From Deltaproteobacteria bacterium (GTDB taxonomy: Bacteria; Desulfobacterota; Desulfobacteria; Desulfobacterales; JAFDMD01), in assembly GCA_019306065.1 (NCBI GenBank), contig JAFDMF010000005.1, positions 64,843 through 128,842 on the forward strand: a DNA stretch of 64,000 nucleotides, read 5' to 3'. The notes beneath the pieces were generated by a model, which saw only the letters and a program-made list of their open reading frames with translations, was not told the DNA's origin and made no database searches. This document shows, in pieces, positions 17,370 to 44,054 of the stretch. Position 1 is the first letter of the stretch; each line of letters opens with the position of its first letter. Position numbers and translations under genes: made by a program.

Positions 17370-18059
17370 TTATTCATAGACGTTTATACTTTCAGCCGTC
17401 AATTCTCTTTTTACGCCTTTTATATTCGCATTAGAATTTTTTTTTAATTTTGAAGCGATTATTCCGCTAATATGAGCCGCAGCAAAGCTGGCGCCTGAAA
17501 AATTTAATTCCTGCGGCAGTCCAGGGATAGCCCGCGGCATTCCGCAGGCTCCGAATTCTATGGAATTCTTCGGATAATAAGCAATTGTATCTTCGTTGCA
17601 ATCCGGGTTTTTGCAAACGCCGATTACCGTATTAAAAACTGCCGGAAAGGTAATATCTAAAATGTGTTTTGCCGAAGATACTATGAAGATGTTTTTTTTA
17701 TAAGCTTTGGCGCAAATCTGTTCTATGGCTTTTTTATATTTTAAAAGTTTTGTGCCAAGACTTAAGTTGACGATTTGCATTCGGTTGTCTATAGCCCAGT
17801 TTAATGCGGCTATTAAAACCGAAGCGGAAGCCGTAAGTTTTTGATTAAAGATTTTAACCGCATACAGTTTTGCAAAAGGAGCTTTTTTTTTTATTATTCC
17901 CGCAATTGCAGTGCCATGTCCTACTATGTCGGTAAAATCGCCGGATTTCATTATCTGTTTTTTATCGTTTAAATAAAATCCCAATCCTTTTTCTATCCCG
18001 TCAACATGGAAATGATCAGGATTTATTCCGCTGTCTATTATAGCGATTTTAACGCTCAT
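17370..18059 (-). CDS. qhpE: QhpE-like subtilisin-family protease
   Basis: This 229-residue S8 serine protease resembles QhpE, which removes the leader peptide of the QHNDH small subunit in the cytoplasm. Catalytic residues are D9 (IAIIDSG), H48 (GHGTAIAG) and S191 (FSGASFAAAH). There is no signal peptide, which fits cytoplasmic action. The oxyanion-hole Asn usually found in an AGN motif is not obvious (VSSAKHI). ATG 18059 is preferred because AAGGAAAGG lies seven bases upstream and the protein then begins directly at the first catalytic strand; a longer frame opens at 18098. It overlaps the qhpF stop by 11 bp, implying coupling. Confidence 0.85.
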   Translation of the reverse strand: MSVKIAIIDSGINPDHFHVDGIEKGLGFYLNDKKQIMKSGDFTDIVGHGTAIAGIIKKKAPFAKLYAVKIFNQKLTASASVLIAALNWAIDNRMQIVNLSLGTKLLKYKKAIEQICAKAYKKNIFIVSSAKHILDITFPAVFNTVIGVCKNPDCNEDTIAYYPKNSIEFGACGMPRAIPGLPQELNFSGASFAAAHISGIIASKLKKNSNANIKGVKRELTAESINVYE

Positions 18060-19719
18060 AAACCTTTCCTTTCTTGCAAACCAGTATTGTATCGGCATTT
18101 TTTATGCTAAGACGATGGTGGCTTACTATTATAATAGTGCGGTTTTTCATTAACTCGCTAACGGTTTTTTTCAAACGCTGTTCCGATTGGGTATCTATAA
18201 AAGCGGTTGCTTCGTCTAATATAAGGATTCTCGGTTTTATTAAGACTGCTCTTGCTATGGCAATTCTTTGTTTTTGTCCGCCGGAAAGCATGGCTCCTCT
18301 ATCGCCTATAACAGTATCGTATCCATTGGGAAGAGATATTATAAAATCGTGGATACAGGCTGCTTTTGCGGCTTGAATAATTTCCGCATCACTTGCGCCT
18401 TGTTTTGAAAATCTAATATTTTCGATTATAGAGGTATGAAACAAAAACGCATCCTGAGAAACAAACGCTATCTGTTTTCGCAGCAAATTTATTTCTATAT
18501 TTCCCAGATTTATATCATCTATGGTTATTATGCCAAAATCCGGAATAAAAAGTCTTGTTATCAGATGACAAATAGTTGTTTTGCCTGCTCCGCTTGCTCC
18601 TATTATAGCGGTTGTTTTGCCTGCCGGAATTGAAAAAGAGACATTGGTTAAAACAGGCTCTTTTTTTTTATATGCAAAGGATATGTTTTTAAAAACTATA
18701 TCTCCGCGCAGGCTCCTTTTTTTAAAAACAGTATTTTCTTCTTTATTGTGTTCTGGCAAAATATCTAATATTTCTTTTACTCTTGCCAAAGATACTTTTG
18801 TGTTTTGTATTGATAAAAGTCCGTTTATCAGCCCTTGCAATGGAGTAAAGACGCGTCCTTGATAGATGGAAAAAGCTACAAGCCCGCCGATTGTCAAGCT
18901 GCCGTTTATAACCAGAATTCCGCCGTATCCGAAAACTATTATTATATTTATAATAGTAAACATTACCGGTATTACGCCTGTAACCGCCCCCAAAATCTGA
19001 TATTTAAGAATATATTTTAAGATGCCGGAATGTTTTTCTTCCATTTTTTTTCGCTCGAATTTTTCGGCTCCGAAAGAACGTATTAAGCTTGCGCCGCTTA
19101 TGGATTCAAAAATAAAATGAGAAAGATCCGCATTTTTTTCCGCTGTTTTTTTCCCTATAATCAAAAGAATGGGACGGATTTTTATAATGATATAAGCGGC
19201 TATCGGCATAAATATAAGACTTGCAAGCGCCATTTTCCAATTAAGCCAAAAGAGTATTGCCGTCGTAATAACGCAGGTTAAAAAATCAAACAGATAATTT
19301 GGCAAAGTTGTGGTAACAAACCCTTGAACTTCCGCCATATCCGAAGAGATTCTATAATATATATCTCCTATTTTTGTTTTTGAAAAAAAGGTTAAAGGTA
19401 TTTTATGGAGATGATAAAACATATCTTCTCGCATTTTAAAAAGAAATTTTGCGCTGTAGCGGGTATATATGTAGTTATTTGCTATTCTTATTATAAAACC
19501 TACGGTTATGATAAGAATCATAATTATTAATATCGGCATAAGGAGTTTTTTGTTATTTGCAAGCAGGACTCTATCTATTATTATTTTTGCGAAAAGGGGT
19601 TGTATCATGCCGATTGCGGCGCTGATTATACTTAGAATAAAGGAGAATATAAGAACTTTTTTATGCTCTTTTATGTAACTGTATAAGTATGTTATTTGCG
19701 TAAAGATAGAGTTTTTCAT
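18049..19719 (-). CDS. qhpF: QhpF-like ABC exporter (membrane and ATPase domains fused)
   Basis: This 556-residue half-transporter has about six membrane helices in residues 20-300 and a nucleotide-binding domain with Walker A GASGAGKT (374-381), signature LSGGQ (478-482) and Walker B ILILDE (498-503). In characterised qhp operons QhpF exports the modified QhpC subunit to the periplasm. No C39 peptidase domain is present, consistent with leader removal by the separate QhpE encoded next to it. General lipid-exporter families share this build, so the specific assignment rests on position. Confidence 0.85.
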   Translation of the reverse strand: MKNSIFTQITYLYSYIKEHKKVLIFSFILSIISAAIGMIQPLFAKIIIDRVLLANNKKLLMPILIIMILIITVGFIIRIANNYIYTRYSAKFLFKMREDMFYHLHKIPLTFFSKTKIGDIYYRISSDMAEVQGFVTTTLPNYLFDFLTCVITTAILFWLNWKMALASLIFMPIAAYIIIKIRPILLIIGKKTAEKNADLSHFIFESISGASLIRSFGAEKFERKKMEEKHSGILKYILKYQILGAVTGVIPVMFTIINIIIVFGYGGILVINGSLTIGGLVAFSIYQGRVFTPLQGLINGLLSIQNTKVSLARVKEILDILPEHNKEENTVFKKRSLRGDIVFKNISFAYKKKEPVLTNVSFSIPAGKTTAIIGASGAGKTTICHLITRLFIPDFGIITIDDINLGNIEINLLRKQIAFVSQDAFLFHTSIIENIRFSKQGASDAEIIQAAKAACIHDFIISLPNGYDTVIGDRGAMLSGGQKQRIAIARAVLIKPRILILDEATAFIDTQSEQRLKKTVSELMKNRTIIIVSHHRLSIKNADTILVCKKGKVYER

Positions 19720-19740
19720 AAGTTTATATTAGTTTCCGTC

Positions 19741-19815
19741 CCAAAATGACTGTTTTGCCTAAAGTATTCCTACGGTTAAAATTGTTATCCGCTTAACCCG
19801 TATCGGTTATAAAGT
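19741..19815. repeat. partial remnant of the palindromic repeat family
   Basis: The segment keeps AAAGTATTCCTACGGTTAAA and a nearby CGCTTAACC block resembling the right half of the full copies, without clear terminal arms. It lies in the 167-bp gap between the UbiU-like gene and qhpF. Confidence 0.35.
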
Positions 19816-19886
19816 TGCAAAGAATTTTATCAAAATCTTAATCATAGTCTATCATAATAAATCATAATTCAGACAAGTTAACTTGA

Positions 19887-20888
19887 TTATTTGTCGGAGA
19901 TATTGCCTGCGCCAAAATAACATACATAACCTGTATCACAATATTTTTCGGTATTTCGCATTTTTTTGGCAAACTCGGCTATCTCTTTGTTTCCGGCTCC
20001 GCTTGCCGCTTTGTCTAATACGGTTTTAACCATTTTAAGACTTGTCATTTTTCTATAAAAAGAAGCTTCTCTGCCGACTATTTTTAACGCTGAAATTCCT
20101 ATATCTTTAAAATTTCCGAACAGGCAGCAAGAACATGGCCCGTTTGGAAATCCGTTTTTCTGATATGAAGAACCGCAGTTGTTTTGGTGCCATAAATAAG
20201 AATTAAGCTCTTTTTTAAGGTTTTTTAATTTTCTTTCTTCGGTTTTTTTTTTTGCAAATTCGCTGTTTTCAAGTTGATATTCGGTCATGCAAAAAGCTTC
20301 GGGAGTATGAGAGGTTAAACAAAAACCTTCTTCATAATAGCAGCCGTCATTTAGGGCAAATACTTCAAATTCGATTTTTTTGTCTGTATTTTTAACAATC
20401 TCTTTTATTTCGTAAAAATTAAGCTGCCGCGGCAATATTATTCTTTTTACCCCAAATTCTTTATAAAAAGCGGCTGTTTCGGAATTAAAACAGTTTCCCA
20501 AACTACTGATATGTATATTGATCGGAATTTTTTTTTTAAATAGAGCAATAAGCAAATTAATATCGCTTATTATAACGGAATCTATAGAAATCTCTTTTAT
20601 AAGTTTTTCGATAAGAGTTAAAAGGTATGAAATTCCCTCGGCGGTATAAAACGGGGAATTAAATGCTACAGATACTAATATATTATTTTTATGAGCGGTT
20701 TTAACTATACATAAAAGTTCCAATTCGGAATTGATGCAGGCGCCTTTGGGCTCTCTGCGGTTTATTTTGCAGACGCCGAATTTTTTTTGCCAAGTATCTG
20801 TATTAAAACCGCAATAAAGCTCATCTGCGCCGAGTTCTATAAGCATTTCAATCTCTTTTATCGAACTTATCGGAGCGGTAACCTTCAT
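19887..20888 (-). CDS. UbiU-like peptidase-U32-family protein in the qhp operon
   Basis: This 333-residue protein has the U32 N-terminus (MKVTAPISSIKEIEMLIELG then ADELYCGF). The family signature FEVFALNDGCYYEEGFC places C183 and C190 six residues apart, as are the first two cluster ligands of E. coli UbiU. Further cysteines (C200, C238, C252, C254, C255) could complete an Fe-S site, but their spacing differs from UbiU. UbiU works with UbiV to hydroxylate ubiquinone precursors without O2; related RlhA and TrhP hydroxylate RNA. ATG 20888 is chosen because the upstream gene stops at 20890 (TAA-A-ATG) and the conserved fold starts there. I infer hydroxylation of the QhpC tryptophan, since QhpG is absent. 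Confidence 0.82.
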   Translation of the reverse strand: MKVTAPISSIKEIEMLIELGADELYCGFNTDTWQKKFGVCKINRREPKGACINSELELLCIVKTAHKNNILVSVAFNSPFYTAEGISYLLTLIEKLIKEISIDSVIISDINLLIALFKKKIPINIHISSLGNCFNSETAAFYKEFGVKRIILPRQLNFYEIKEIVKNTDKKIEFEVFALNDGCYYEEGFCLTSHTPEAFCMTEYQLENSEFAKKKTEERKLKNLKKELNSYLWHQNNCGSSYQKNGFPNGPCSCCLFGNFKDIGISALKIVGREASFYRKMTSLKMVKTVLDKAASGAGNKEIAEFAKKMRNTEKYCDTGYVCYFGAGNISDK

Positions 20889-20889
20889 T

Positions 20890-21741
20890 TTAAAATATAT
20901 CTCCCTGATACACCATACGAATATTTTTATTTTTTGCTTTTTCAACAAAAGCTTCAAGCATTGAAGCCGGATAAAGATAAAAAACGGTATTTCCTTTTTG
21001 AAAAACAGAAAATAAAAAAGAATCGTTTTTTAATTCTAATAATCGGCTGCTACACGGCTTGGCGCATTTATCTGCAATAGCAAGAGCATTCGCTTTATTT
21101 TTTTGCAGCAAAGCGGTTAAACATACCCTTCCTGTTGTTATGTATCCGAAAGGAAAATAAAAACTTTGCAGCGTATCCTCTTTTATATGAAATTCGGAAA
21201 TATTTTGGTATGGAAGTATGTCTTGTTCCAGCCCGGATATGCCGAGGCTTTTTATTAATTTACAAAAATTCGGATTGTCAAAGGTTGAAGAGGTAAAAAA
21301 TTTATCTTTTTGGGTTTCGGATAAACGGGGGTCTTTAAAAGCTTTATTTAAAAGCCTGCCTGCCGAAATTTTTAATTTCGGATAGTTTTTTTTTATAAAA
21401 AGCAAAATTCCCCAATCGTTTACAACTACTTGGGGTTTATTAAATTTTATAAGATGATCAAGCAAATAAGCGCATTTTTTTAAACCTTTATTTGTAAGCG
21501 GAGGAGTCAATAGGGTAATTTTTGTATTTTTATCCTCTATTTTTTTTAATTCGTCAGCCGTAGGAAGAAGATGAAGGCAGAATTCATTTCCTATATAAAT
21601 TCCGCCCTCATATTGAAAAAATGCGTCATAATTATTATAAAGAGACTTGATTTTTTCGCCGTAAAACTTTTTTATATGCTTAAAAAAAAATTTCGGGTTT
21701 TTTATTTGCTTAAATTTTTTGAGATGAAAAGCAATCTCCAT
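20890..21741 (-). CDS. UbiV-like peptidase-U32-family protein in the qhp operon
   Basis: This 283-residue protein has four cysteines, C55, C207, C226 and C230, in the order and context of the four [4Fe-4S] ligands of UbiV (IYIGNEFC; GYITTGRVC; then CAKPC). Other shared segments are VVVNDWGILL and ISAGRLLNKAF, equivalent to the SDLG and GHALN regions of UbiV. The start is set at ATG 21741, one base after the cytochrome stop codon; a longer frame from 21789 would overlap that gene. It is coupled to the UbiU-like gene by a second TAA-A-ATG junction, so the two probably form a complex as UbiU and UbiV do. Overall similarity to UbiV looks modest, and the substrate is inferred. Confidence 0.78.
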   Translation of the reverse strand: MEIAFHLKKFKQIKNPKFFFKHIKKFYGEKIKSLYNNYDAFFQYEGGIYIGNEFCLHLLPTADELKKIEDKNTKITLLTPPLTNKGLKKCAYLLDHLIKFNKPQVVVNDWGILLFIKKNYPKLKISAGRLLNKAFKDPRLSETQKDKFFTSSTFDNPNFCKLIKSLGISGLEQDILPYQNISEFHIKEDTLQSFYFPFGYITTGRVCLTALLQKNKANALAIADKCAKPCSSRLLELKNDSFLFSVFQKGNTVFYLYPASMLEAFVEKAKNKNIRMVYQGDIF

Positions 21742-21742
21742 T

Positions 21743-22300
21743 TTAATTTTGCCGCTCGTCGGGAGCCTGTTTCGGCAAAACTTTTTCAAAAAACTTCTGC
21801 CCTTCTCTTATTTCATGATTATGGCAGTCTTTACACGGCTGGTTTGTAATATTTTTTATTAATTTGCCATGCACGGACGCTTGTTCTATCTGTTTATGAT
21901 TTTTAGCGGTTTTACATTGAAAACAACGGCTGTTCGGAACCAAACTCCAATAACCCGGCTCTTTCTCCGTATCAAGAAATAAGGGCTCTTCCGGCAGTTT
22001 GATCGGCTCTTCCGGATCCCGTTTAAAATGCTCAATCAACTGTCTAACCGCCGATTTATTCATTGCAAGCCATCCTGAAAGGTCATTTGTATAATGGCAT
22101 CCGGCACAATTGTTATGATTTAAAGCGGTTTCCGATTTTTTCCAGTTTTCTATAGGTTTTTGCATTTCATGACATACTACGCATGTTTTATCCTGAAAAT
22201 ATCTTATTGAAACTTCATGAAAACCCAAAACTAAAAAAAATAAACCTATAATTATTATACAAACTTTTAATCCTGTTTTCTTATTACTTTTTTTTTTCAT
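21743..22300 (-). CDS. NapC/NirT/NrfH-like membrane tetrahaem cytochrome c
   Basis: This 185-residue protein has a basic N-terminus and one membrane helix (about 11-29), then a periplasmic domain with four haem motifs: CVVCH (40-44), CAGCH (65-69), CFQCK (126-130) and CKDCH (156-160). The third ends in lysine, as in the active-site haem of NrfA, rather than histidine. NapC/NirT-family proteins link the quinone pool to periplasmic redox enzymes, so this is the likely electron acceptor of QHNDH. The gene lies between qhpB and the U32 pair and is coupled to both. Aerobic QHNDH uses soluble cytochrome c or blue-copper acceptors instead. Confidence 0.85.
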   Translation of the reverse strand: MKKKSNKKTGLKVCIIIIGLFFLVLGFHEVSIRYFQDKTCVVCHEMQKPIENWKKSETALNHNNCAGCHYTNDLSGWLAMNKSAVRQLIEHFKRDPEEPIKLPEEPLFLDTEKEPGYWSLVPNSRCFQCKTAKNHKQIEQASVHGKLIKNITNQPCKDCHNHEIREGQKFFEKVLPKQAPDERQN

Positions 22301-22339
22301 AATATTTCTTATCTACGAATAAATAAAATTAATTATCTT

Positions 22340-23365
22340 TTATAAAGTAAGGCGGTGAGCCACTAATCCGTCCGCTTCAAGAGTAATAACTCCAAGAAGT
22401 TTTAATGTTTTGGAGTCATATACGCTTATATCGTTTCCCGCAGGTCCTACATATATTTTTTTGCCGTCTGAAGTTAAGCTTATCGCATAATTGGTTCCTC
22501 TTTCAAGGGGAACCATTTTGACGGTTTCGCCTGTTTTTAAATCAACTTTTATTAATTCGTCCATAGCCCCGTAAAGATATTTTTTATCGGGGGATATAAC
22601 CGCCGAATATTCAAAAAAAACATCTTTGCCTTTAACTTCGCTTAGTTTGCCGTCTTTTGTATCTATAAGCAGATAACCCATGCCGGATGCGGTATAATAC
22701 GGAACGTTAAAAATTCCGTGATCCCCAGGAGTTAAGCTGTTCCATATTGCAAGAGCGTTTTTTACCTCTTTATCTTTTCCGGGATTTAACAGCCCGAAAT
22801 ATTTTTCGATTTTTCCGCTTTCAAGATCAAGCTTATAAAAATCCAGCCCTCCCAAAATTACGCTTTTATTGTCTTTAAGAGCAATAACAGTCATAACCCC
22901 GTAAGGTATTTGATAATTTTTTACCACTTTTTTATCCGCTATGTCATATACTACCAATTGAGGAGACAAAACGTTTAATTTTGGGATATTTTGCTTTTTT
23001 TTAGTAATAGAGCAGCTTAAATAGAATTTTTTGCTGTCTGCAGATACGGTAAAACCGAGTATATCCACTTTGCTTAATTCGGACGAGAATTTATAAGTAT
23101 CCGTAAGCTCGTTTGTAGCCGTATTTATTGCATATATGGAATGAAAAGCGTTTAAATAATATCTTTTTTTATTCGGCGAAAAAGCCGCTCCTGTAATGTA
23201 ATCGTTGTAATTAACGGTTTTGACTATAGTATCCGTATCGCAATCTATAACATGTAACGCATTGCTTACAGGCGCATAGATATAATCTTTTGCTATCGAC
23301 GCATGCGATACAATAAAGCAGAATATAATAGCTGAAAATAGTATTTTATATAATTTGAATTTCAT
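22340..23365 (-). CDS. qhpB: quinohemoprotein amine dehydrogenase beta subunit
   Basis: This 341-residue protein has a Sec signal peptide (about residues 1-25, ending near SHASIA). Repeated beta-propeller blades follow, marked by YAPVSNALHVIDCD, SPNKKRYYLN, SPDKKYLYGA and SDGKKIYVGP. The QHNDH beta subunit is a seven-bladed propeller of this length that helps enclose the CTQ subunit. It begins 23 bp after qhpC with an AAAGGAGG ribosome site. YVTN-type propellers have many roles, so the subunit assignment depends on the adjacent qhpC. Confidence 0.88.
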   Translation of the reverse strand: MKFKLYKILFSAIIFCFIVSHASIAKDYIYAPVSNALHVIDCDTDTIVKTVNYNDYITGAAFSPNKKRYYLNAFHSIYAINTATNELTDTYKFSSELSKVDILGFTVSADSKKFYLSCSITKKKQNIPKLNVLSPQLVVYDIADKKVVKNYQIPYGVMTVIALKDNKSVILGGLDFYKLDLESGKIEKYFGLLNPGKDKEVKNALAIWNSLTPGDHGIFNVPYYTASGMGYLLIDTKDGKLSEVKGKDVFFEYSAVISPDKKYLYGAMDELIKVDLKTGETVKMVPLERGTNYAISLTSDGKKIYVGPAGNDISVYDSKTLKLLGVITLEADGLVAHRLTL

Positions 23366-23388
23366 ATTAGTCCTCCTTTAGTCCGCCT

Positions 23389-23736
23389 CTATTTTTTAAT
23401 TACAAAATTTAAATTTCTCCAATCTTTTTCAATAGCCCTGCATTGATTTTGAAAATCCGGAAAGTTGGTAATATTATCCGGGGTTTGAGCGGGCCACCAG
23501 CATGGACCGGAACAGCTGGTAAAATCTCTGGCGCTTGAAACGCAGTTTCCTATAGGAGTTGTAGATCTTGGATTTGTTTCCCATCCCGTATCAAAAATGG
23601 TAGTGCAACCTATAGGCATGCTTGTAATAATATCTTCATCTGCCATACCGAATACCTCTTCTTCGGTTTTTTCGATCTGTTTGGCGCTTTTATTTAACGC
23701 TTTTACTCCTTTTATTTTATTTTTTTTATCTGTCAT
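23389..23736 (-). CDS. qhpC: quinohemoprotein amine dehydrogenase gamma subunit (CTQ-bearing)
   Basis: This 115-residue precursor has a lysine- and glutamate-rich leader of about 30-40 residues and then the CTQ core. In Pseudomonas and Paracoccus QHNDH, thioether links join Cys-Glu (9 apart), Cys-Asp (6), Cys-Asp (8) and Cys-Trp (6, forming CTQ). The same spacings occur here: C44-E53, C65-D71, C79-D87 and C75-W81, within CSGPCWWPAQTPD. An extra Cys at 99 is unlinked by analogy. There is no Sec signal, which fits cytoplasmic modification and export by QhpF. The start has an AAGGCGG site. Confidence 0.95.
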   Translation of the reverse strand: MTDKKNKIKGVKALNKSAKQIEKTEEEVFGMADEDIITSMPIGCTTIFDTGWETNPRSTTPIGNCVSSARDFTSCSGPCWWPAQTPDNITNFPDFQNQCRAIEKDWRNLNFVIKK

Positions 23737-23766
23737 TATTATCCGCCTTTCTTATAATTATTATGA

Positions 23767-23844
23767 GATTTCTCCTCGCTTTGCTCGTCAAAACGACACG
23801 GTAAAAAAAATTGCTTCCTGTCTTGTCGAGCGAAGCGAGAAATC
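23767..23844. repeat. 78-bp inverted repeat (GATTTCTC...GAGAAATC)
   Basis: Arms of about 25 bp (GATTTCTCCTCGCTTTGCTC and its near-complement) flank an AT-rich centre in the qhpD-qhpC gap. A half-copy lies at 25516-25551, and related half-sites occur in the direct repeats at 57146 and 58000. Confidence 0.8.
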
Positions 23845-23938
23845 CTTTTATTATTTTGGATAATCATCCTTTTGTGCGTTTAAATCTTTTTAGACATGAA
23901 TCTTTCCTCTGATTATAATTAAATTGCAAAGCAACAAA

Positions 23939-23966
23939 GTAGAGACGTTGCATGCAACGTCTCTAC
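23939..23966. repeat. 28-bp perfect palindrome
   Basis: The sequence GTAGAGACGTTGCA plus its exact complement forms a perfect 28-bp palindrome. An identical copy is at 52604-52631 and a diverged copy at 43399-43422. As RNA it would form a strong hairpin between qhpD and qhpC. Confidence 0.9.
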
Positions 23967-24013
23967 AGAAAACAAGAAGCAAAGCAAATACAATCAACTT
24001 AAAAATATGCGGT

Positions 24014-25453
24014 TTATATAATATGTCCGGTTACAGGAGAATGCCCTCTTAACATTGAAAGCTTATTTAGATAATCCGGATTTTTTAAAATAAGTTTCCC
24101 GTATATTTTAAGACCGTATTTAATCCATTCTTTAATCCATTCGCAATAATGCAGATTAGCTTTTGTAAGCTTTTTTTCCCGAATTAAAGCTTCATGATAA
24201 CATCCGCCTGCGCAGATATATCTTACTTCGCATAATCCGCACTCCGGTTTTGCGTTTAGTTCCGCTTTTTTTCTGAATTTTTTAACCGCCTCCGTATCAA
24301 AGCCGTCTGATAAATTTCCCATGCAAAAGGCTTTGTTTCCTATAAGACGCTGACAAAGATAAAGTTTTTCCTCTGCAGATACCGCAAAAAGCCCTAACCC
24401 GGCTCCGCATGGATAATTTTTTACTTCGCCTTGATGAAGCAAAACAAGAAGATCTATAATATTGGTAAAGCCGTAAAATTTATCCTCATCGGCATACCGT
24501 AAAAATTTATCCGAAAGCTCTTTGAATTTATTAAGCATTATTTTCATTTCGTCGGTATTAAGCTGATAAGCCGGATTATCTGTAGTTACTGGTCCAAAGC
24601 CTGCTTCCGCAAAACCGAGTTTTAACAGATGTTCTAAAGTCTGGGGCAGATGCGCCGCATTCTTTGCTACGGTTACTCTTGCCACAACAGGCTTTCCGCC
24701 TTTTGTTTGAAATTTATTGATAAGATTTTTTATCTTTGGAAGTATTGCCTTATATGAAGAGCCTCCGTCTGCAAATTGTCTGAATTTGTCATGAATTTCT
24801 TGGGGACCGTCTATGCTTACGGTAACTCCTATTTTATTTTGATAAAAAAAATCAATAACCTTTTCGGTTAAAAGGGTTCCGTTTGTAGTAATTGCAAATT
24901 CCGCTTTTTTTTGAAGCTTTTTCGCTTTTTTTTGAGCATAGCCGGTTATAAAGGTTATTAGATCAAAATTTATAACAGGCTCGCCTCCGAAAAAAACAAT
25001 CGTAACCTTTTTATTGGCGTCGGAATTATCAAACAGAAAATCAACCGCTTTTTCTGCCGTAGCAAAAGTCATACTATCGGTTTTTTCTATTTTATTATCC
25101 TTATTATGATAACAATAAAGGCAGCTAAGATTACATCTGTCCGTTATATTGAAAACAAGCGTTTTTAAAGGGATTTTATTATAAACGCAGGATATATTTT
25201 TTTTTTCTATCAAAGGCGTTAATATCCTGCGCTTTATAAGAGTATCTGCAATTTCTTGATAATTTTTAATGCCGGCATCCTTTATTTTTTTAAGAATCTC
25301 TTTTTTATTAGATTGTTCGGATTTATTAAAAAGCTTTATAGTTTTTTCGATTTTCGGCTCTATCTCGAAAATAGCGCTTTCGGATACCAAAAAAATAAAA
25401 ATATGATCCGATTCTTTAAAAATTATATGATCTGCTTGTTTGTATGTTATCAT
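24014..25453 (-). CDS. qhpD: QhpD-like radical SAM/SPASM maturase
   Basis: This 479-residue enzyme matches QhpD, which makes the Cys-to-Asp/Glu thioether cross-links in QhpC using a 5'-deoxyadenosyl radical. The radical SAM cluster motif is C107-x3-C111-x2-C114 (RCNLSCLYC). Other radical SAM blocks are VFFGGEP and VSIDGPQEIHD. The SPASM domain near the C-terminus has CGAGLGLFAVS, LYLCQRL, CGLCEVRYICAGGCYH and a last cysteine near HYCEWI, consistent with two auxiliary [4Fe-4S] clusters. An N-terminal region of about 95 residues probably recognises the peptide. It precedes qhpC by 277 bp that contain palindromic repeats. Confidence 0.93.
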   Translation of the reverse strand: MITYKQADHIIFKESDHIFIFLVSESAIFEIEPKIEKTIKLFNKSEQSNKKEILKKIKDAGIKNYQEIADTLIKRRILTPLIEKKNISCVYNKIPLKTLVFNITDRCNLSCLYCYHNKDNKIEKTDSMTFATAEKAVDFLFDNSDANKKVTIVFFGGEPVINFDLITFITGYAQKKAKKLQKKAEFAITTNGTLLTEKVIDFFYQNKIGVTVSIDGPQEIHDKFRQFADGGSSYKAILPKIKNLINKFQTKGGKPVVARVTVAKNAAHLPQTLEHLLKLGFAEAGFGPVTTDNPAYQLNTDEMKIMLNKFKELSDKFLRYADEDKFYGFTNIIDLLVLLHQGEVKNYPCGAGLGLFAVSAEEKLYLCQRLIGNKAFCMGNLSDGFDTEAVKKFRKKAELNAKPECGLCEVRYICAGGCYHEALIREKKLTKANLHYCEWIKEWIKYGLKIYGKLILKNPDYLNKLSMLRGHSPVTGHII

Positions 25454-25515
25454 AATATTTTCTTGATAAAAAATGTCCGCCGAATTTTATACAAATCACA
25501 GTTCGAATAATTACA

Positions 25516-25551
25516 AGATTTCTCCTCGCTTCGCTTGTCGAAATGACATGG
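25516..25551. repeat. half-copy of the GATTTCTC element
   Basis: It matches the left arm of the inverted repeat at 23767-23844 with a few changes and lies in the qhpA-qhpD gap. No right arm is present. Confidence 0.6.
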
Positions 25552-25686
25552 CAAAAAAACTCAAAGTTTAAGGAATGTTCAAAGTTTTTTTGCGTAGCGG
25601 CTATTATCCATGAGGAAACAAACTTAAATATCTCCTTTATAATTATTCTTGTTTGTGTTTAATATTACTTCATCAATAATGGGTTT

Positions 25687-27321
25687 TTATTTTATATGGG
25701 GTATAAAATCAGGAACCGTAACCGCCAATCTCGCCTTTGCTTTAAATTTTTCATATAGAGCGCTAACCCCTATAAGCCCTACTCCTTCTCTGCGCTGGGT
25801 TCGTTCTTCTATTGGTCCGTAAGTGGTTACAGGCGTATATAATCCGTTTGTAATCGGAGCCTTAAGATATTTTAAATCATCGTCGTTTTCTCTTGTTACA
25901 ACCTCTTCAAGAGACCATTTTACATCTACAGGTTCCAAAATAAGATCATCTGCCGTATTAGGCTTTCCGTCTTTGCCGAAATTGATTGCTCGCGCTACAA
26001 ATTGAACTCCGTGCGGAGGATAAGCAGCTCCGCTGCTTACTCTTGCTCTGCCTATTGCAGGAAAAATTTCAATGCCGTCTATTTTATTAAAAACCGTAAT
26101 TCCCTCGTTATATTGGGCATCTTTTACTTTAAGGGTTAATATTCTTTTTCCCGTTGCAGTTTTATTGTTTAACCTAAGTTCGCAGACTAATTTTGTATCG
26201 TCTATTCTTGCAAGTTTTTTTATTTTAACATTTGCATCCGAAAATGTAATATCGCCGGCTTTTATATTTTTCGGAAAACCGCTTCCTATTAACGTTAAAT
26301 TTTGAATTAAATCAGCGCTGTTTTTTAACGCCTGCGGATAATGAGCAATAACATTTAATTTGTCTGTAATTTTTACAAACTTTTCATCTCCGTAGCTGTT
26401 TGTATCCTGAATAACTGTCCACCATTTTCCCTTAAATTCGTTATTTCTATCATTTAAATCAAAAACCCCTTCTATTCTTCCTGTAAATGCAGACGGAGCA
26501 AGCGAGTATCTAATATGATATTCGCCGTAAAGAACAGCCTCGCCTTCGATTTTAAGCGTAATTCCGTTTTCGTATTTAACCTGTTTTGCAATAAGATATT
26601 CATCCTCTCCTTTTGCAGAATTCGGTTTAAAGGTATACATTCCTTCGTAATATCCTATTCCGGGCTGATAACCGGTTATTTTCCATTCTCCTGTAAGGTC
26701 TTGCTCTTTTCTATTTTTTAACCATGTTTTCCATTCTTCCGAATTAAAGGGAAACAGTTTTGAAAGCGGTTCGGTTAATTGATCGGACTCTTTGGGCCAA
26801 TCCATCTCCCGCATTTGAGGAACCGTAGTAGGATAATATCCAAGATGCAAATTTCTGTTTTCTTTCCACTGAGATAAGGTCATTCTGTGGGAGGCTATTT
26901 TCCCGTAGGTGTGGCATCTGACGCATGCGGTATAGATTCTTTTTTCTTCTTGATTTAAAGGTATTTCTCTATACTGGCTGTTTTCGTCGCTGTTTATATA
27001 GCTGATTTTTGCCATCTCCGCAGGAGATAAGCATAAGTATTTACTTAATTCTTTAACAAGAGGATAAAAACCGCTCTCTGTTACCGGAGCGCTGTTTAAC
27101 CTCATCATTCTAGTTATAACAACCTTCCATTCTTCCGGAGTTTTTCTTGTTTCCTCTATAACTTCAATAGTTCCGTTTGCACTCGCTTTATGACAAGCTC
27201 CGCATTGCTGCCTTATTATAGAAGATTTCGGAATTAAGGTTTCGGCATATCCGATTGAAGATATTAAAAAAATGATAAGCAGCGGTATTATATAATAATG
27301 TTTTGCAGATATTTTTTGCAT
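25687..27321 (-). CDS. qhpA: quinohemoprotein amine dehydrogenase alpha subunit (dihaem cytochrome c)
   Basis: This 544-residue periplasmic subunit has a signal peptide (about 1-26, ending IGYA). Two c-type haem motifs, CGACH (40-44) and CVRCH (133-137), form the N-terminal dihaem domain. Three beta-rich domains follow (about 190-300, 330-420 and 430-540). This order and length are those of the 60-kDa QHNDH alpha subunit, which takes electrons from CTQ. It is the first gene of the locus, and the order qhpA-D-C-B is the same as in aerobic bacteria. A terminator-like hairpin lies in its 5' leader. Confidence 0.93.
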   Translation of the reverse strand: MQKISAKHYYIIPLLIIFLISSIGYAETLIPKSSIIRQQCGACHKASANGTIEVIEETRKTPEEWKVVITRMMRLNSAPVTESGFYPLVKELSKYLCLSPAEMAKISYINSDENSQYREIPLNQEEKRIYTACVRCHTYGKIASHRMTLSQWKENRNLHLGYYPTTVPQMREMDWPKESDQLTEPLSKLFPFNSEEWKTWLKNRKEQDLTGEWKITGYQPGIGYYEGMYTFKPNSAKGEDEYLIAKQVKYENGITLKIEGEAVLYGEYHIRYSLAPSAFTGRIEGVFDLNDRNNEFKGKWWTVIQDTNSYGDEKFVKITDKLNVIAHYPQALKNSADLIQNLTLIGSGFPKNIKAGDITFSDANVKIKKLARIDDTKLVCELRLNNKTATGKRILTLKVKDAQYNEGITVFNKIDGIEIFPAIGRARVSSGAAYPPHGVQFVARAINFGKDGKPNTADDLILEPVDVKWSLEEVVTRENDDDLKYLKAPITNGLYTPVTTYGPIEERTQRREGVGLIGVSALYEKFKAKARLAVTVPDFIPHIK

Positions 27322-28847: not shown

Positions 28848-29918
28848 TTATTTTCTTTGAATGCCTATAGATTCCTGATGTATTTTGCTAAACAGCTTTA
28901 ACATAAATTCCTCCGAAAGATTATATTTTTTTCCGGCGGATATTCTGCTTTCCGCTATTGCATTCCATCTTTCAGGCTGAAATATCGAAACCTTTTTTAA
29001 CTTTTTCTTTTTACCTATAGTTTCAGAAAGTTCTCTTCTTTTAGCAAGAAGATCTATTATTTTGTAATCTACTTTATCTATTTCTTCTCTTACATTTTCT
29101 ATCTCAAGATAGAATTTTTTATCATTTATATATTCTTTTTTAAACTGTAAGTTATCTAAAAGGGTTTTAAGATCTTTGGGGCGCAGCTGCTGGGCAGAAT
29201 CGCTTAAAGCTACATCCGGGTTTATATGAGATTCTATCATTAAGCCGTCATATAAAAGATCCATTGCGATTTGAGAAACGGATGAAAGTAATTCTCGGTT
29301 TCCGCATATATGGCTCGGATCGCATATAATAGGAATCTGGGGAATTCTTCTTCTAAGTTCTACCACCAATTCCCATTCCGGTACGTTTCTGTATTCGTAT
29401 TGTTTAAATGAAGAAAATCCTCTGTGAATAGCCGCTATTTTTGTAATTCCTGCCCTATTAAGCCTTTCTATTGCTCCTATCCATAAATCAATATCCGGGT
29501 TTACAGGATTTTTAATCATTACAGGAATATCTATTCCTTTTAAAGAATCTGCAATCTCTTGAACAGTAAAAGGATTCACTGTTGTTCTTGCTCCTATCCA
29601 TAAAATATCTATTTCATTATCAAGCGCCTCTTTTATATGACCGCTGTTTGCAACCTCTACCGTAACAGGTAAATTAAACCTTTTTCCCGCTTCTTTAAGC
29701 CAGCCCAAACCGGCTTCGCCTACTCCTTCAAATGAATTAGGTCTTGTGCGGGGTTTCCATATTCCGGCTCTTAATACATTGACGTTAAATTTTGAAAGCT
29801 CTTCGGCAGTTTCCATAACCTGCTCGTAAGATTCCGCGCTGCATGGTCCAGCTATTATTAATTTCTCTTTTTTTTTTATTTTCCAGCTGTCTATATTATC
29901 TATTATTAAATTTTTCAA
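28848..29918 (-). CDS. bifunctional DAHP synthase-chorismate mutase
   Basis: Residues 1 to about 258 form a type I-beta (AroF/KDO8PS-like) DAHP synthase: IIAGPCSAES, LRAGIWKPRTRPNSFEG, MIKNPVNP and the metal site ICDPSHICGN. After a short linker, residues about 268-352 form an AroQ chorismate mutase helix bundle (VREEIDKVDYKIIDLLAKR, then KIHQESIGIQ). Such fusions join entry to the shikimate pathway with formation of prephenate and allow feedback control by prephenate or chorismate. The start overlaps the preceding 89-residue gene by 23 bp. Prephenate matters here because it is the proposed oxygen donor of U32 hydroxylases. Confidence 0.92.
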   Translation of the reverse strand: MKNLIIDNIDSWKIKKKEKLIIAGPCSAESYEQVMETAEELSKFNVNVLRAGIWKPRTRPNSFEGVGEAGLGWLKEAGKRFNLPVTVEVANSGHIKEALDNEIDILWIGARTTVNPFTVQEIADSLKGIDIPVMIKNPVNPDIDLWIGAIERLNRAGITKIAAIHRGFSSFKQYEYRNVPEWELVVELRRRIPQIPIICDPSHICGNRELLSSVSQIAMDLLYDGLMIESHINPDVALSDSAQQLRPKDLKTLLDNLQFKKEYINDKKFYLEIENVREEIDKVDYKIIDLLAKRRELSETIGKKKKLKKVSIFQPERWNAIAESRISAGKKYNLSEEFMLKLFSKIHQESIGIQRK

Positions 29919-39004: not shown

Positions 39005-42000
39005 TTATGCAGCGGCGTCTATTTGACTTAAAATTTCTTTATCCGTAAAGTGTTTTAAAGATATTGCTCCCGTAGGACATTTTGCGTTACAAAGCCCGTC
39101 TCCTTTGCAAAGAACAGGATTAACAAAAGCTTTGCCGCCCTGTTTTGTTTTGCGTAATTCTATAGCGTTGTATGTGCATGCGGATATACAGGCTTCGCAT
39201 CCTATACATTTTTTTTCCTCCACTTCGCAAACCGAACCGGAAACCGTAACTATGTCGCGAGCAAGCAGGGTTAAGGCTCTGCCTGCGGCTCCGTAAGCCT
39301 GACTGATTGTTTCGGATATATGTTTCGGGTAATGGGCTGTTCCGCAAAGATAAACTCCGTCTGTTCCGAATTCTACGGGTTTTAATTTTACATGAGCCTC
39401 TTTGAAAAAATTATCGGGTCCTAATGGAACTTTAAATAATAGAGATATTTTTTTGTTGTCTTCGGGAGGAAGAACCGCTGCCGCCAAACTTATTATATCC
39501 GCATCTATAGCGATTTTTCTGCCTAATATATAATCGTATATGGCAACTCTTAAAATAGTTTTGCCGCTTTCGTCTATAGCCTTTACTTCAGGTTTTGCTT
39601 CCGGCTTGTAGCGGATAAATTTTATATTGTTCTCAGCCGCTTCTCTGTAATAATCCTCTTTAAAACCGTAAGTTCTTATATCTCTAAATAAAATATATAT
39701 ATCGATATCAGGGTTTATTTCTTTTAGTTTAAGTCCGTTTTTGATTGATTCGGAGCAGCATATTCTACTGCAGTAGTTTCTATCTTCATTCCTGCAGCCT
39801 ACGCACTGTATCATGGCGATATTTTTTGCGCTTATTACGGAGTTGTCTTTTTGAGCAATCAGATTTTCCAATTGAAGATTTGTTACTACTCTTTTATCTT
39901 TTCCGTAAAGGTATTCTTTGGGTTTATATTCCCGAGCGCCTATAGCGATAACTGCCGCTCCGTGTTTTATTTTTTCGGTTTGGTTTTTGTATCTTATTTC
40001 CGTCTCGAAATTTCCCACATAACCGTAAGCCCCTGTTATTTCAACCTCTGTTCTTACTCGGATTAAAGGATGTTTATAAACTTTGCTTATAAGGTTGTTT
40101 AAATGGGCGCTAATATCTAAGTTTTCTAATAAATAACGGATCTTTTTTGCAATGCCTCCGAGATCATTATTTTTTTCTATAAGATATACAGGATGGTTTT
40201 GTTCGGCTATGGAAAGAGCGCATGTCATTCCCGCTATTCCGCCGCCTATTATTAAAGCGGTTTTATTTACGGGAAGATCTATTTCTTGTAAAGGCTCAAG
40301 ATGCGCCGCGCGCGCCGCCGCCATTTTAATTATATCTTTTGCTTTTTGGGTTGCCTCCTCCTTTTCTTTGGAATGCACCCAAGAGTTATGCTCTCTTATG
40401 TTAGCCATTTCGCAAAAGTATTGATTGATTCCCGCCTCTTTTAAGGTATCTCTAAACAGCGGTTCAAGGGTTCTCGGAGAGCATGCGGCTATGATTACGC
40501 GGTTTAAGCCTTTTTCTTTTATTGCGTCTGTTATCTCTTTTGCGGAATTTGTAGCGCAGGAAAAAAGCTGTTCGCAAGCATAAACAACATTAGGCAGCGT
40601 TGAAGCGTATTGAACGGCGGAAGGCACATCTACAACTCTTCCTATGTTTGATCCGCAATGGCATACAAAAACCCCTATTTTCGGCTCTTCGCCGGATTGG
40701 TCAATTTCTTGCGGATATATTCTTTCTTTGGTAAGTTTATCTCTTCTGTAATTAAGAAGCTCGCCGCATTGAGAACCAGCGCCGCTTGCGCCAAAAACCG
40801 ATTCCGGAATATCGGAAGGTCCGCTAAACGCGCCGCTTATAAATATTCCCGGTCTTGTGGTCTGCATTGGATTGGAAGGGTCTGTTTTACAAAATCCATA
40901 AGAATTAAGCTTTATTTGAAATTTTTCGGCTATTTTAAGATGATCTGCCGGCGGGTTTAATCCTACGGATAATACTACCATATCAAATTCTTCCTCTTTT
41001 ACTTGGGAGTCGGAGGTGGCATATCTTATAATTATATTTTTGGTTTTTGGGTCTTGTCTGTCTATTGACGGGTAGCTTCTTATAAATCTAACTCCGGGAA
41101 GATTTTCGGCTCTTTGGAAGTATGTTTCAAAATCTTTGCCGTAAGAACGGATGTCATTATGGAATATTACGCATTCTGCATTAGAATCATGTTCTTTTGT
41201 TAAAATTACCTGCTTTTGAGCGTAGGCGCAGCATACCGCAGAGCAATACGGGTTATCTCCCGGGGTTACTCTTCTTGAACCTACGCACTGTATCCATGCT
41301 ATTTTACGAGGATGTTTTTTATCGGATGCGCGCAGTATTTCTCCTTCGTAAGGTCCCGTTGCGCATAAAATTCTTTCAAAGTCAAGGGATGTAACTACAT
41401 TTTGAAACTCTCCGTAGCCATATCTGCCTTTTATTGTAGGATCAAACGCCTCATACCCCGGACACAAAATAACGGCTCCTATTTTTATTTCTATTTTTTT
41501 CGGCTTTTGATAAAAGTCTATGGCGTCGTTTTTACAGACTCCCGCGCAGATAAGACATTTTTTTTCTTTAAGATAAAGGCAGCTTTCATCTATGTATGCA
41601 ATTAAAGGAATTGCTTGGGCAAAGTATATATGGATCGCTTTGTTTTCAGATATTTCCCGATTGAATTGATCCGGATATTGAACAGGGCAGTATTCCACGC
41701 AAACGGTGCAGCCAGTACATTTTTCTTCTATAATGTATCTTGGTTTTTTTATTAAAGTTGCTTTAAAATTTCCCGCTTCTCCTTCTATGTTTTCAACTTG
41801 AGTATAAGTTATAACCTCTATGTTAGGATGCCGGCCGACCTCGACCAGTTTTGGCGCCAGTATTCACATTGAGCAGTCGTTGGTAGGATAGGTTTTATCT
41901 AACTGAGCCATTTTGCCGCCTATAGCGGCGTTTTTTTCAACAAGATAAACCTTAAAGCCAGCGTCCGCAAGATCCAAAGAGGCTTGTATGCCGCTGATTC

Positions 42001-42091
42001 CTCCGCCTACGACCATTACGTCTGCGTAATCGCTTTTTTCGGTTTTACAAAGCTTTTGAATTTTTTCTTCTATCAATTGTTTGGTATTCAC
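39005..42091 (-). CDS. selenocysteine-containing double HdrA-like flavoprotein (BamE-like)
   Basis: Reading the in-frame TGA at 41864-41866 as selenocysteine (U76, in NDCSMU) joins two open segments into a 1028-residue protein. The first HdrA module has [32 protein letters not shown], the ferredoxin motif [11 protein letters not shown] and [11 protein letters not shown] second module starts near 400 ([16 protein letters not shown]) with its own FAD site [14 protein letters not shown] and [12 protein letters not shown]. Two C-terminal [4Fe-4S] motifs ([11 protein letters not shown] and [11 protein letters not shown]) end it. BamE of the class II benzoyl-CoA reductase complex is a large HdrA-like protein in the same gene order. 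HdrA is the electron-bifurcating flavoprotein of such complexes. Confidence 0.9.
41831..41848 (-). promoter_or_regulatory. candidate bacterial SECIS hairpin in the HdrA/BamE-like gene
   Basis: CTGGTCG and CGGCCGG form a 7-bp stem (two G-U pairs) with an AGGU loop, located 16-33 bases after the UGA at 41864-41866. Position and the GU-containing loop fit the SelB-binding element. Confidence 0.6.
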
Positions 42092-42181
42092 TTTAATCCG
42101 CCTTTATTTAAACTCCGCCGTATAACTTTTTTGTTATTCGACAAAATTTCTTTTTATATTTTTATTAAGAAATTTCTCCTG

Positions 42182-43333
42182 TTAAATTACTCGTTCAATA
42201 ATTTCGGCAAGCTCTTTAATTTCTATCTGTTCGCCGCCTTTAACCGTTAATTTGCTATCCTCGAAATTGGCGATACAGTATGGGCAGGCTGTAACTAGCA
42301 CTTCGGCTCCCGCGTTTATTGCTTGTTGTAATCTGATATCCGAAAATCTTTCCCCTTTTGGAGTCTCCATCCAAATTCTGCCCCCTCCGCCTCCGCAGCA
42401 AAGGCTGTTTTCCATTGTTTCTTCCATTTCGATTAACTCAAGCCCATGTATCTGTTTTAAAATTTGTCTCGGCTGGCTGTATATGCCGTTATGACGCCCC
42501 AAATAACACGGGTCATGATATGTAACCTTTTTATTGTATTCTTTTTGTAGTTTAAGTTTTTTGCCGTCAAGAAGTTTCCATAAATATTCGGATATATGTA
42601 TAACTTCAAAATTTCCCATAAGTTCCGGATATTCGTTTTTAAATGTATGATAACAATGCGGAGAGGATACAAGGATTTTTTTTACGCCATTCTCCACAAA
42701 GGTATTGATGTTTTGATACGCCAATTTTTTAAATAACTGCTCGTTGCCTGTTTTGCGGATGCTCTCTCCGCAGCAGCTCTCTTTTTGACCCAGTATTCCG
42801 AAATTTACTTCGGCTTTTTTAAGAATTTTAACCGTAGCTATAGCGGCTTTTTTTAATCTGGGGTCGTAGCTGAAATAGCAGCCCGTAAAATATAGCAATT
42901 CCGTTTCTTCGTCAAATTCTTTTACTCCAAGCTCTTTTGCCCAATCCGCCCTTTTTTTTCGTTCTTCGTTAAAAGGGTTGCCTTCGCCTGTAAGACTTCC
43001 GCTTATTCCGCGAATTGGAGCGGCGGAAGCCGGCAATATGTCATATTCGGTTGCAATTTTTCGCAGCGCTATTCCGGATTCTATTTGTTGAACGTCTCTC
43101 GGGCAATGCGTCGGGCATTTTCCGCAAGTGGTGCATAGCCATAGCTCTTCGCTTTCTATATCGGTAAAACCGAACGCCGCTTCCCGGACTATTTTGCGCA
43201 TACTAAAAGAGCGGACTTTATTCCACGGGCATACTATATCGCATAATCCGCATTGAAAGCATCTTTTAAAAGCGTCGCCCCCGCTTGCTTTTATCATATC
43301 TGATATTTCTTTATAGTCGGATAGATTTTCCAC
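42182..43333 (-). CDS. HdrD-like (HdrC-HdrB fusion) Fe-S protein, BamD-like
   Basis: This 383-residue protein begins with two [4Fe-4S] motifs (CFQCGLCDIVCP and CTTCGKCPTHCP), the HdrC part. Two CCG domains follow: FTGCYFSYDPR with ESCCGES, and YHDPCYLGRHNG with SLCCGGGGGR. Such CCG pairs hold noncubane [4Fe-4S] clusters in heterodisulfide reductases. BamD occupies the equivalent place between BamC and BamE. It would pass electrons between the HdrA-like flavoprotein and the ferredoxin or tungsten subunits. Confidence 0.9.
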   Translation of the reverse strand: MENLSDYKEISDMIKASGGDAFKRCFQCGLCDIVCPWNKVRSFSMRKIVREAAFGFTDIESEELWLCTTCGKCPTHCPRDVQQIESGIALRKIATEYDILPASAAPIRGISGSLTGEGNPFNEERKKRADWAKELGVKEFDEETELLYFTGCYFSYDPRLKKAAIATVKILKKAEVNFGILGQKESCCGESIRKTGNEQLFKKLAYQNINTFVENGVKKILVSSPHCYHTFKNEYPELMGNFEVIHISEYLWKLLDGKKLKLQKEYNKKVTYHDPCYLGRHNGIYSQPRQILKQIHGLELIEMEETMENSLCCGGGGGRIWMETPKGERFSDIRLQQAINAGAEVLVTACPYCIANFEDSKLTVKGGEQIEIKELAEIIERVI

Positions 43334-43398
43334 CTGCTTTTTTCATCCCTTTTTTATCTGTTTATATTTTAAAATACAAAGATACAAAGTTGCAAATT

Positions 43399-43422
43399 AG
43401 AGACGTCGCGTCCAACGTCTCT
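43399..43422. repeat. diverged copy of the GAGACGT palindrome
   Basis: AGAGACGTCGCG and TCCAACGTCTCT form an imperfect palindrome related to the perfect 28-bp copies at 23939 and 52604. It lies upstream of the BamD-like gene. Confidence 0.6.
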
Positions 43423-43494
43423 TTCATTTTTTTGTTCATTGTTTTTGCAAACAACTTTGAACATCTCTACGCATAAAATGAGCAAAATAAGAAA

Positions 43495-44037
43495 TTATGC
43501 AACGGAGTTATAGGAGATTCGGGTTACGGTATCTATTACCTGCTCTAATCCGTATTTGTCCGCTAACGCTTTTAATCCTATTTCCAAGTCGTTTTGATCT
43601 GGCATTTCTTCGATTTCTTCTTCCTTTTCTTCATAAATAAGGGCGTCTGTTATGCACCATTTAACGCATAAAGGTTCGTCTTCTCCTTCGCACATATCGC
43701 ATTTTAAAGGAAGTCCGGAATCCGGTTCTTTAAATTCTTCTCTCGACGGGCAGGATGCTCGGCAAAAAGCGCATTCCTCATATTCTTTTCCGTCTATTAT
43801 GTATTTGTCTCTGCCCGCGCATTCCGCCGGAGTATATTCGCCCGCATAAACGGGAACGTATATGTCCGCCAAAGGATCGCAGATTACTCTAATACGCGCT
43901 CTTGCCGGATTGTTGGAACTATATTTGGGCAAAGCGTGAAAAGCCGAACATATTACTTCGCAAGATCTGCAGCCGTTGCATTTATCAACGTCTATTTTTA
44001 TTGTTTTTATTGTTTTTCTTTTTTTTTCGCTGTCCAA
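43495..44037 (-). CDS. BamC-like polyferredoxin subunit
   Basis: This 180-residue protein has three [4Fe-4S]-type cysteine groups: CNGCRSCEVICSAFH near the N-terminus, CAFCRASCPS in the middle, and CDMCEGEDEPLCVKWC towards the C-terminus. This resembles electron-transfer subunits of AOR-family and molybdopterin enzymes; BamC is the electron donor to BamB in class II benzoyl-CoA reductase. It starts 17 bp after the BamB-like gene. The C-terminal 40 residues are acidic. Confidence 0.88.
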   Translation of the reverse strand: MDSEKKRKTIKTIKIDVDKCNGCRSCEVICSAFHALPKYSSNNPARARIRVICDPLADIYVPVYAGEYTPAECAGRDKYIIDGKEYEECAFCRASCPSREEFKEPDSGLPLKCDMCEGEDEPLCVKWCITDALIYEEKEEEIEEMPDQNDLEIGLKALADKYGLEQVIDTVTRISYNSVA

Positions 44038-44054
44038 GGTTTCCGTCCTCCGTT

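Follow-up and report, generated by a model that had tools for sequence, protein, structure and literature searches.

A UbiU/UbiV-like U32 protein pair in the place of QhpG in amine dehydrogenase operons: a likely oxygen-independent tryptophan hydroxylase in the maturation of cysteine tryptophylquinone

How can an anaerobe make cysteine tryptophylquinone (CTQ), the protein-derived quinone of quinohemoprotein amine dehydrogenase? To our knowledge, CTQ formation in this enzyme has to date been known only as an oxygen-dependent process. In the aerobic system the flavoprotein QhpG puts both CTQ oxygens, taken from O2, on the crosslinked gamma subunit QhpC within a QhpC-QhpD-QhpG complex (PMC7876137). 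The question is raised by a qhp operon in a stretch of 64,000 nucleotides, here called the window, from a Deltaproteobacteria bacterium of the Desulfobacterales (assembly GCA_019306065.1, contig JAFDMF010000005.1, positions 64,843 to 128,842), whose genome measures 1.97 Mb and is 93% complete. The initial annotation of this DNA, made from the letters alone, had placed the operon in an anaerobe, and an anaerobic host is well supported by genes in the window for subunits of carbon monoxide dehydrogenase/acetyl-CoA synthase, which scored over their family cut-offs, and for a protein of the aldehyde:ferredoxin oxidoreductase (AOR) family. The QhpC of the window has, like its relatives, equivalents of C37, W43, C41, D33 and D49 (P. 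putida numbering). Since the QhpG route depends on O2 and the CTQ residues are kept in an anaerobe, the tryptophan step must run another way.

Searches of open reading frames and protein families found a full qhp operon on the minus strand of the window, from 27321 down to 17370, in the order qhpA, qhpD, qhpC, qhpB, a tetraheme cytochrome gene, a UbiV-like gene, a UbiU-like gene, qhpF and qhpE. The alpha, beta and gamma subunits and the proteins QhpD, QhpE and QhpF are therefore all encoded; QhpB and QhpD fall under their NCBIfam cut-offs, yet these families are their best matches and the gene order is conserved. The two U32-family genes form a tandem on the same strand, the UbiV-like gene at 20890..21741 and the UbiU-like gene at 19887..20888, with one base between the stop of the first and the start of the second (...TTT TAA A ATG AAG...). 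The qhp and U32 genes named in the initial annotation lie where it had placed them, and the TAA-A-ATG coupling that it described was confirmed, as was its remark that the locus lacks a flavin monooxygenase, in that QhpG was not found among the locus genes. Nor was QhpG found elsewhere in the whole of the 93%-complete genome, where nine matches of at most 25.5 bits over about 30-60 residues were seen against a cut-off of 240 bits, the best of them a Rossmann motif stretch of about 30 residues. Besides the U32 genes of the operon, the genome has a single other gene with the PF01136 domain, and this one is distinct.

The relation between the U32 pair and QhpG was surveyed in genomes gathered by two routes: genome contigs were scanned with a QhpC alignment, which gave 77 named loci, and the QhpC family was used to search draws of 300-400 genomes from each of three phyla, Desulfobacterota, Bacillota and Pseudomonadota. 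QhpG was identified by NF049967 (cut-off 240 bits) and by PDB 7ctq and was sought in whole genomes, and the UbiV-like gene was located at the locus or, for genomes of QhpG type, unclear genomes and the phylum draw, by a whole-genome search. The 85 genomes bearing qhpC divided into 54 with the U32 pair only, 23 with QhpG only, one with both and seven with neither, so that the mutual exclusion for which the initial annotation had suggested a test is near-perfect and the pair, occurring in 55 of 85 genomes across several phyla, is not peculiar to one strain. The phylum draws, which were unselected by similarity to the window, gave by themselves 12 genomes with the pair, six with QhpG, none with both and one with neither (one-sided p 2.6e-4). 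The Fisher p over the full set is 1e-13; we do not rest the case chiefly on it, since the genomes share ancestry and similarity to the QhpC of the window guided the choice of many. QhpG was found away from the locus in three genomes (L086, L089 and L091) and the U32 pair in two (G077 and G445), which shows that the searches were able to detect genes beyond the locus. A few U32-type genomes had flavoprotein matches of 77-105 bits, well below the QhpG cut-off, and two genomes with a partial or just sub-threshold QhpG (L074, 189 bits; L096, 236 bits) were counted as QhpG type. Judged by gene content, then, the U32 pair replaces QhpG.

Among the seven genomes with neither, L030 has a decayed chromosomal operon, and L029, L039, L069/L077 and G592 are contig ends or incomplete metagenome-assembled genomes (MAGs). 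The remaining two, L082 and L083, belong to Bryobacterales and have qhpA, qhpC and qhpB only, with qhpD, QhpG and the U32 pair not seen at the locus and neither a UbiV-like gene nor an over-cut-off QhpG found in the genome.

The initial annotation had described the pair as UbiU- and UbiV-like, and the two halves of that description fared differently. The UbiU-like protein is a clear homologue of UbiU (profile-profile probability 99.9%, E 2e-34), it matches the U32 domain PF01136 with 118.9 bits, and the best PDB fold match of its predicted structure is the U32 protein 5d88; the AlphaFold model is poor over residues 185-201. Its best NCBIfam family is UbiU (NF047963) at 86 bits, far under the cut-off of 440, and the 28 members that were scanned all match UbiU, each below that value. 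The UbiV-like protein is a homologue of UbiV that is too diverged to bear its name: against a 31-sequence UbiV profile it reached a probability of 86% (E 4.7e-6), compared with 8% against UbiU, and its place in the U32 family depends on profile-profile comparison. The window protein matched no Pfam or NCBIfam family, none of 29 UbiV-like members matched UbiV (NF047965, cut-off 275 bits), and its predicted model, a confident alpha/beta barrel-like fold (pLDDT 87), found nothing in a PDB fold search with E below 0.001. Relatives of the UbiV-like protein were not found in viral contigs.

Conservation of the residues that matter in known U32 hydroxylases is strict. The four UbiV-like cysteines named beforehand, C55, C207, C226 and C230, proved invariant in 48 of 48 proteins, and their CXnCX18CX3C pattern is similar to the CXnCX12CX3C of UbiV (PMC6747719). 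In the UbiU-like protein E175, C183, C190, C200, C252, C255, C317 and C323 are invariant in 43 of 43 proteins. The spacing of E175/C183/C190 equals that of UbiU E161/C169/C176 and of E162/C170/C177, residues that TrhP cannot do without (PMC6599085), and C200 is aligned to UbiU C193; iron-sulfur (Fe-S) ligand cysteines and the catalytic glutamate are thus in place, with the fourth UbiU-like ligand uncertain. Cysteines 252, 255, 317 and 323 are not in UbiU, and our guess is that they could hold a second cluster.

Operons with the U32 pair were found in Desulfobacterota, in Burkholderiales and other beta- and gammaproteobacteria, in Terriglobia (Acidobacteriota), in the Alphaproteobacteria Terasakiella, Telmatospirillum and an Acetobacteraceae MAG, and in the Bacillota Schinkia azotoformans, Calidifontibacillus, Brevibacillus and Planococcaceae; QhpG-type operons were found in Azospirillum, Paracoccus, Pseudomonas, Azoarcus, Haliea and Binatota. 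Most deep branches of the QhpD tree are of U32 type, and the QhpD of the window groups with them. The UbiV-like protein co-diverges with QhpD (Mantel rho 0.78, p 0.001). The commonest U32-type order is A-D-C-B-(cytochrome)-V-U-F-E, V and U being the UbiV-like and UbiU-like genes; Bacillota have C-A-D-B-V-U-F-E and alphaproteobacteria A-D-C-B-F-E-V-U, with V always before U. At locus L170 a D-V-U-F-E cassette is separate from A-C-B, and at L035 V-U-F-E lies ahead of A-C-B, which indicates that the pair moves with the maturation genes rather than with the structural ones.

The single genome with both systems is a Litorilituus MAG labelled ETNP, which represents a natural dual-route operon: a QhpG-type operon is adjoined by a convergently oriented, foreign-looking U32 pair (L098:13854-16926). 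Its QhpD is of QhpG type, with 71% identity to the QhpD of Haliea, and its U32 pair is nearest to the alphaproteobacterial type, suggesting that the pair was gained alone. In five Binatota loci (L080, L081, L087, L090 and L091) a second A-C-B set adjoins the first with a single qhpD at the locus, so that one maturation set apparently serves two amine dehydrogenases.

The presumed substrate is conserved as well. U32-type QhpCs retain Trp43 and the crosslink residues, the CWW motif occurs in all full-length ones, and the CTQ Cys37 is kept in all that were seen except one. In that case, a U32-type operon of genome G344 (L021:5704-6024), QhpC has Thr in place of Cys37 and one extra residue ahead of CWW; the usual CTQ formation is impossible with this residue, and a different tryptophylquinone may perhaps be formed.

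We consider it likely that the U32 pair is an O2-independent substitute for QhpG that acts as a peptidyl-tryptophan dihydroxylase. The initial annotation had also read the pair as an O2-independent tryptophan hydroxylase, and that reading is supported here as the one that fits best. QhpD would crosslink QhpC in the cytoplasm, and an Fe-S heterodimer of the UbiU-like and UbiV-like proteins would put two hydroxyls on the CTQ-precursor Trp43 while QhpD holds QhpC. The oxygen would probably come from prephenate, by analogy with other U32 hydroxylases; the leader would be removed by QhpE and the chain exported by QhpF, and the quinone would be completed through periplasmic oxidation. It was demonstrated that benzene ring hydroxylation by UbiUV makes no use of O2, even when air is present (PMC10470549; for O2-free ring hydroxylation see also PMC6747719). 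According to a review, the hydroxyl oxygen of anaerobic ubiquinone synthesis is derived from prephenate (PMC11574389).

Like UbiU-UbiV (YhbU-YhbV), the O2-independent ubiquinone hydroxylases, the qhp pair consists of a UbiU-like and a UbiV-like U32 gene side by side that stand in for an O2-dependent flavin monooxygenase, and its cysteines match C39/C180/C193/C197 of UbiV by pattern and C169/C176/C193 of UbiU by alignment. Unlike UbiU-UbiV, it lies in a qhp operon with V before U, where UbiT is not among the genes identified; it forms separate branches in both trees, far under the family cut-offs, its UbiU-like member has the four extra invariant cysteines, and its proposed substrate is a protein. 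With QhpG it would share the step, the substrate QhpC, the gene neighbourhood and the partner QhpD, although QhpG is a non-U32 monooxygenase that uses flavin adenine dinucleotide and takes both oxygens from O2. TrhP and RlhA, the prephenate-dependent U32 hydroxylases, have identical spacing of the Glu/Cys/Cys motif, and for TrhP, too, there is an O2-dependent counterpart, TrhO; they differ in acting on RNA and in not being encoded with qhp.

Several observations weigh against a dedicated O2-free tryptophan hydroxylase. Schinkia azotoformans and Terasakiella are probably facultative bearers of the pair that also meet oxygen. The link of the UbiV-like protein to UbiV is moderate even with the 31-sequence profile, and against the lone E. 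coli UbiV its profile reached 2.5%; the fourth ligand of the UbiU cluster, C232, has no firm counterpart in the UbiU-like protein. The U32/QhpG label needs just about two changes on the QhpD tree, so the association is not phylogenetically independent and independent swaps are few. Finally, homologous pairs exist without qhp, hence the activity of the family is not specific to CTQ.

It could be argued that the pair performs a part of the QhpG task, for instance the first hydroxylation, and that the second is left to the hemes of QhpA or to some further redox protein, in the way that MauG acts in the case of tryptophan tryptophylquinone (TTQ). Two hydroxyls are indeed added by separate processes in the biogenesis of TTQ and of LodA/GoxA (PMC7876137), the invariant cysteines 252, 255, 317 and 323 suggest redox chemistry beyond that of UbiU, and one lineage has a gene for a NapC-like cytochrome close by. 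We regard such a division of labor as unlikely, given that QhpG, the enzyme replaced, adds both oxygens itself (PMC7876137), that UbiUV together cover several ring hydroxylations, and that most U32-type operons are without the cytochrome. Less probable still is that the pair hydroxylates RNA, a lipid quinone or some small molecule that amine catabolism requires, that a common physiology ties it to qhp, and that another enzyme serves the tryptophan. Characterised U32 enzymes do use ubiquinone precursors and RNA, and related pairs occur in genomes without qhp; a substrate of this kind would leave the exclusivity with QhpG without reason, the pair lies within the maturation cassette, in a Burkholderiales genome (G407) a true UbiV is encoded in addition to the qhp pair and apart from it, and an alternative hydroxylase family conserved across U32-type loci was not found among the recurrent neighbours. 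The Pfam name of PF01136, Peptidase family U32, might also suggest peptidases or chaperones that process QhpC. This role was rejected as very improbable, because complete operons already have the leader protease QhpE and because the invariant Fe-S ligand cysteines, together with the Glu essential in TrhP, would stay unexplained; it would in addition leave the hydroxylase still missing.

The idea that the UbiV-like family is specific to qhp failed. In the Desulfobacterota draw UbiV-like matches were found in 38 of 395 genomes and QhpC in only nine, all of them within the 38. Pairs of UbiV-like and UbiU-like genes outside qhp were observed in many Desulfobacterota (L238-L257; for example L254:2447-4263, L240:9745-11572 and L238:9527-11508), often with two UbiV-like copies per genome and with the same UbiV-like cysteines. 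The family is thus broader than CTQ, and the qhp pair represents one of the branches of a larger UbiU/UbiV-like family that is uncharacterised. A more elaborate scenario, to which we give somewhat less than an even chance, would make the pair the older, O2-free route to CTQ, a peptidyl-tryptophan dihydroxylase that depends on prephenate and whose UbiU-like subunit carries two Fe-S clusters, with QhpG as the later aerobic substitute and the qhp pair as part of a wider U32-pair family having further substrates.

If the pair does hydroxylate QhpC, it would add proteins, as a first case, to the lipids and RNA on which O2-independent U32 hydroxylases act, and would explain how anaerobes can possess CTQ, so far unexplained. 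It would also bring to three, with UbiIHF/UbiUV and TrhO/TrhP, the natural cases in which an O2-dependent enzyme and a U32 enzyme are paired at the same step, and would offer a small soluble protein substrate for U32 chemistry in vitro, for which ubiquinone precursors are too hydrophobic. An earlier report of U32 genes in qhp operons was not found in the literature searched, most subscription journals lying outside its reach.

The other genes of the operon, all on the minus strand, were assigned as follows. qhpA (25687..27321) encodes the diheme alpha subunit (TIGR03908, 292 bits, cut-off 274; PF09098, PF14930 and PF09100). qhpD (24014..25453) encodes the radical S-adenosylmethionine/SPASM enzyme for the Cys-to-Asp/Glu thioether crosslinks in QhpC; its best family is TIGR03906 (419 bits, cut-off 453). 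The gamma subunit precursor, with a leader and a core that carries the CTQ Cys/Trp and the crosslinking Cys/Asp/Glu, is encoded by qhpC at 23389..23736 (NF037958, 124.7 bits, cut-off 50). The diverged beta-propeller beta subunit gene qhpB (22340..23365; TIGR03907, 125 bits, under the cut-off of 223) has 54% identity to the qhpB at the same operon position in locus L013, and qhpF (18049..19719; PF00664 and PF00005), for the ATP-binding cassette exporter of the modified gamma subunit, has 53% identity to its positional counterpart there. The subtilisin-like leader protease is encoded by qhpE at 17370..18098 (NF049966, 169.6 bits, cut-off 165).

The gene absent from the initial annotation, at 21743..22300 between qhpB and the U32 pair, encodes a tetraheme NapC/NrfH-like cytochrome c (PF03264, 33.8 bits; motifs CVVCH, CAGCH, CFQCK and CKDCH), a probable electron partner. 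Homologues were found in 17 loci, with position almost always unchanged and only together with QhpC of the window type (mostly Desulfobacterota); one heme motif is CXXCK in most of them and CXXCH in others.

A gene after qhpE in the window encodes an acyl-CoA ligase, and 12 loci have AOR genes at a distance of up to about 10 kb from qhp; these loci are U32-type or untyped, with none of QhpG type. This fits an anaerobic route from amine to aldehyde, acid and acyl-CoA. Recurrent neighbours of U32-type operons are sigma-54 regulators, DUF1302, DUF1329, YCF48, MMPL, AOR and acyl-CoA ligase; one frequent neighbour cluster in GC-rich loci resembles spurious reading frames. About 13 U32-type loci (L035:7885-14664, L044, L061, L067 and others) have the conserved set DUF1302-DUF1329-YCF48-MMPL in the vicinity of qhp; none of the QhpG-type loci examined showed this set, which perhaps serves in amine uptake. 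Elsewhere in the window, a gene at 28848..29918 on the minus strand encodes a 3-deoxy-D-arabino-heptulosonate 7-phosphate (DAHP) synthase/chorismate mutase (PF00793 and PF01817), which indicates that prephenate can be made and nothing beyond that. A link of aroB and this gene near qhp to prephenate supply was dropped, since homologues were lacking at the other qhp loci examined. At 39005-46040 the window encodes consecutively AOR-family, ferredoxin-like, CCG and HdrA-like proteins, an arrangement that we take to resemble the BamB-BamE genes of class II benzoyl-CoA reductase.

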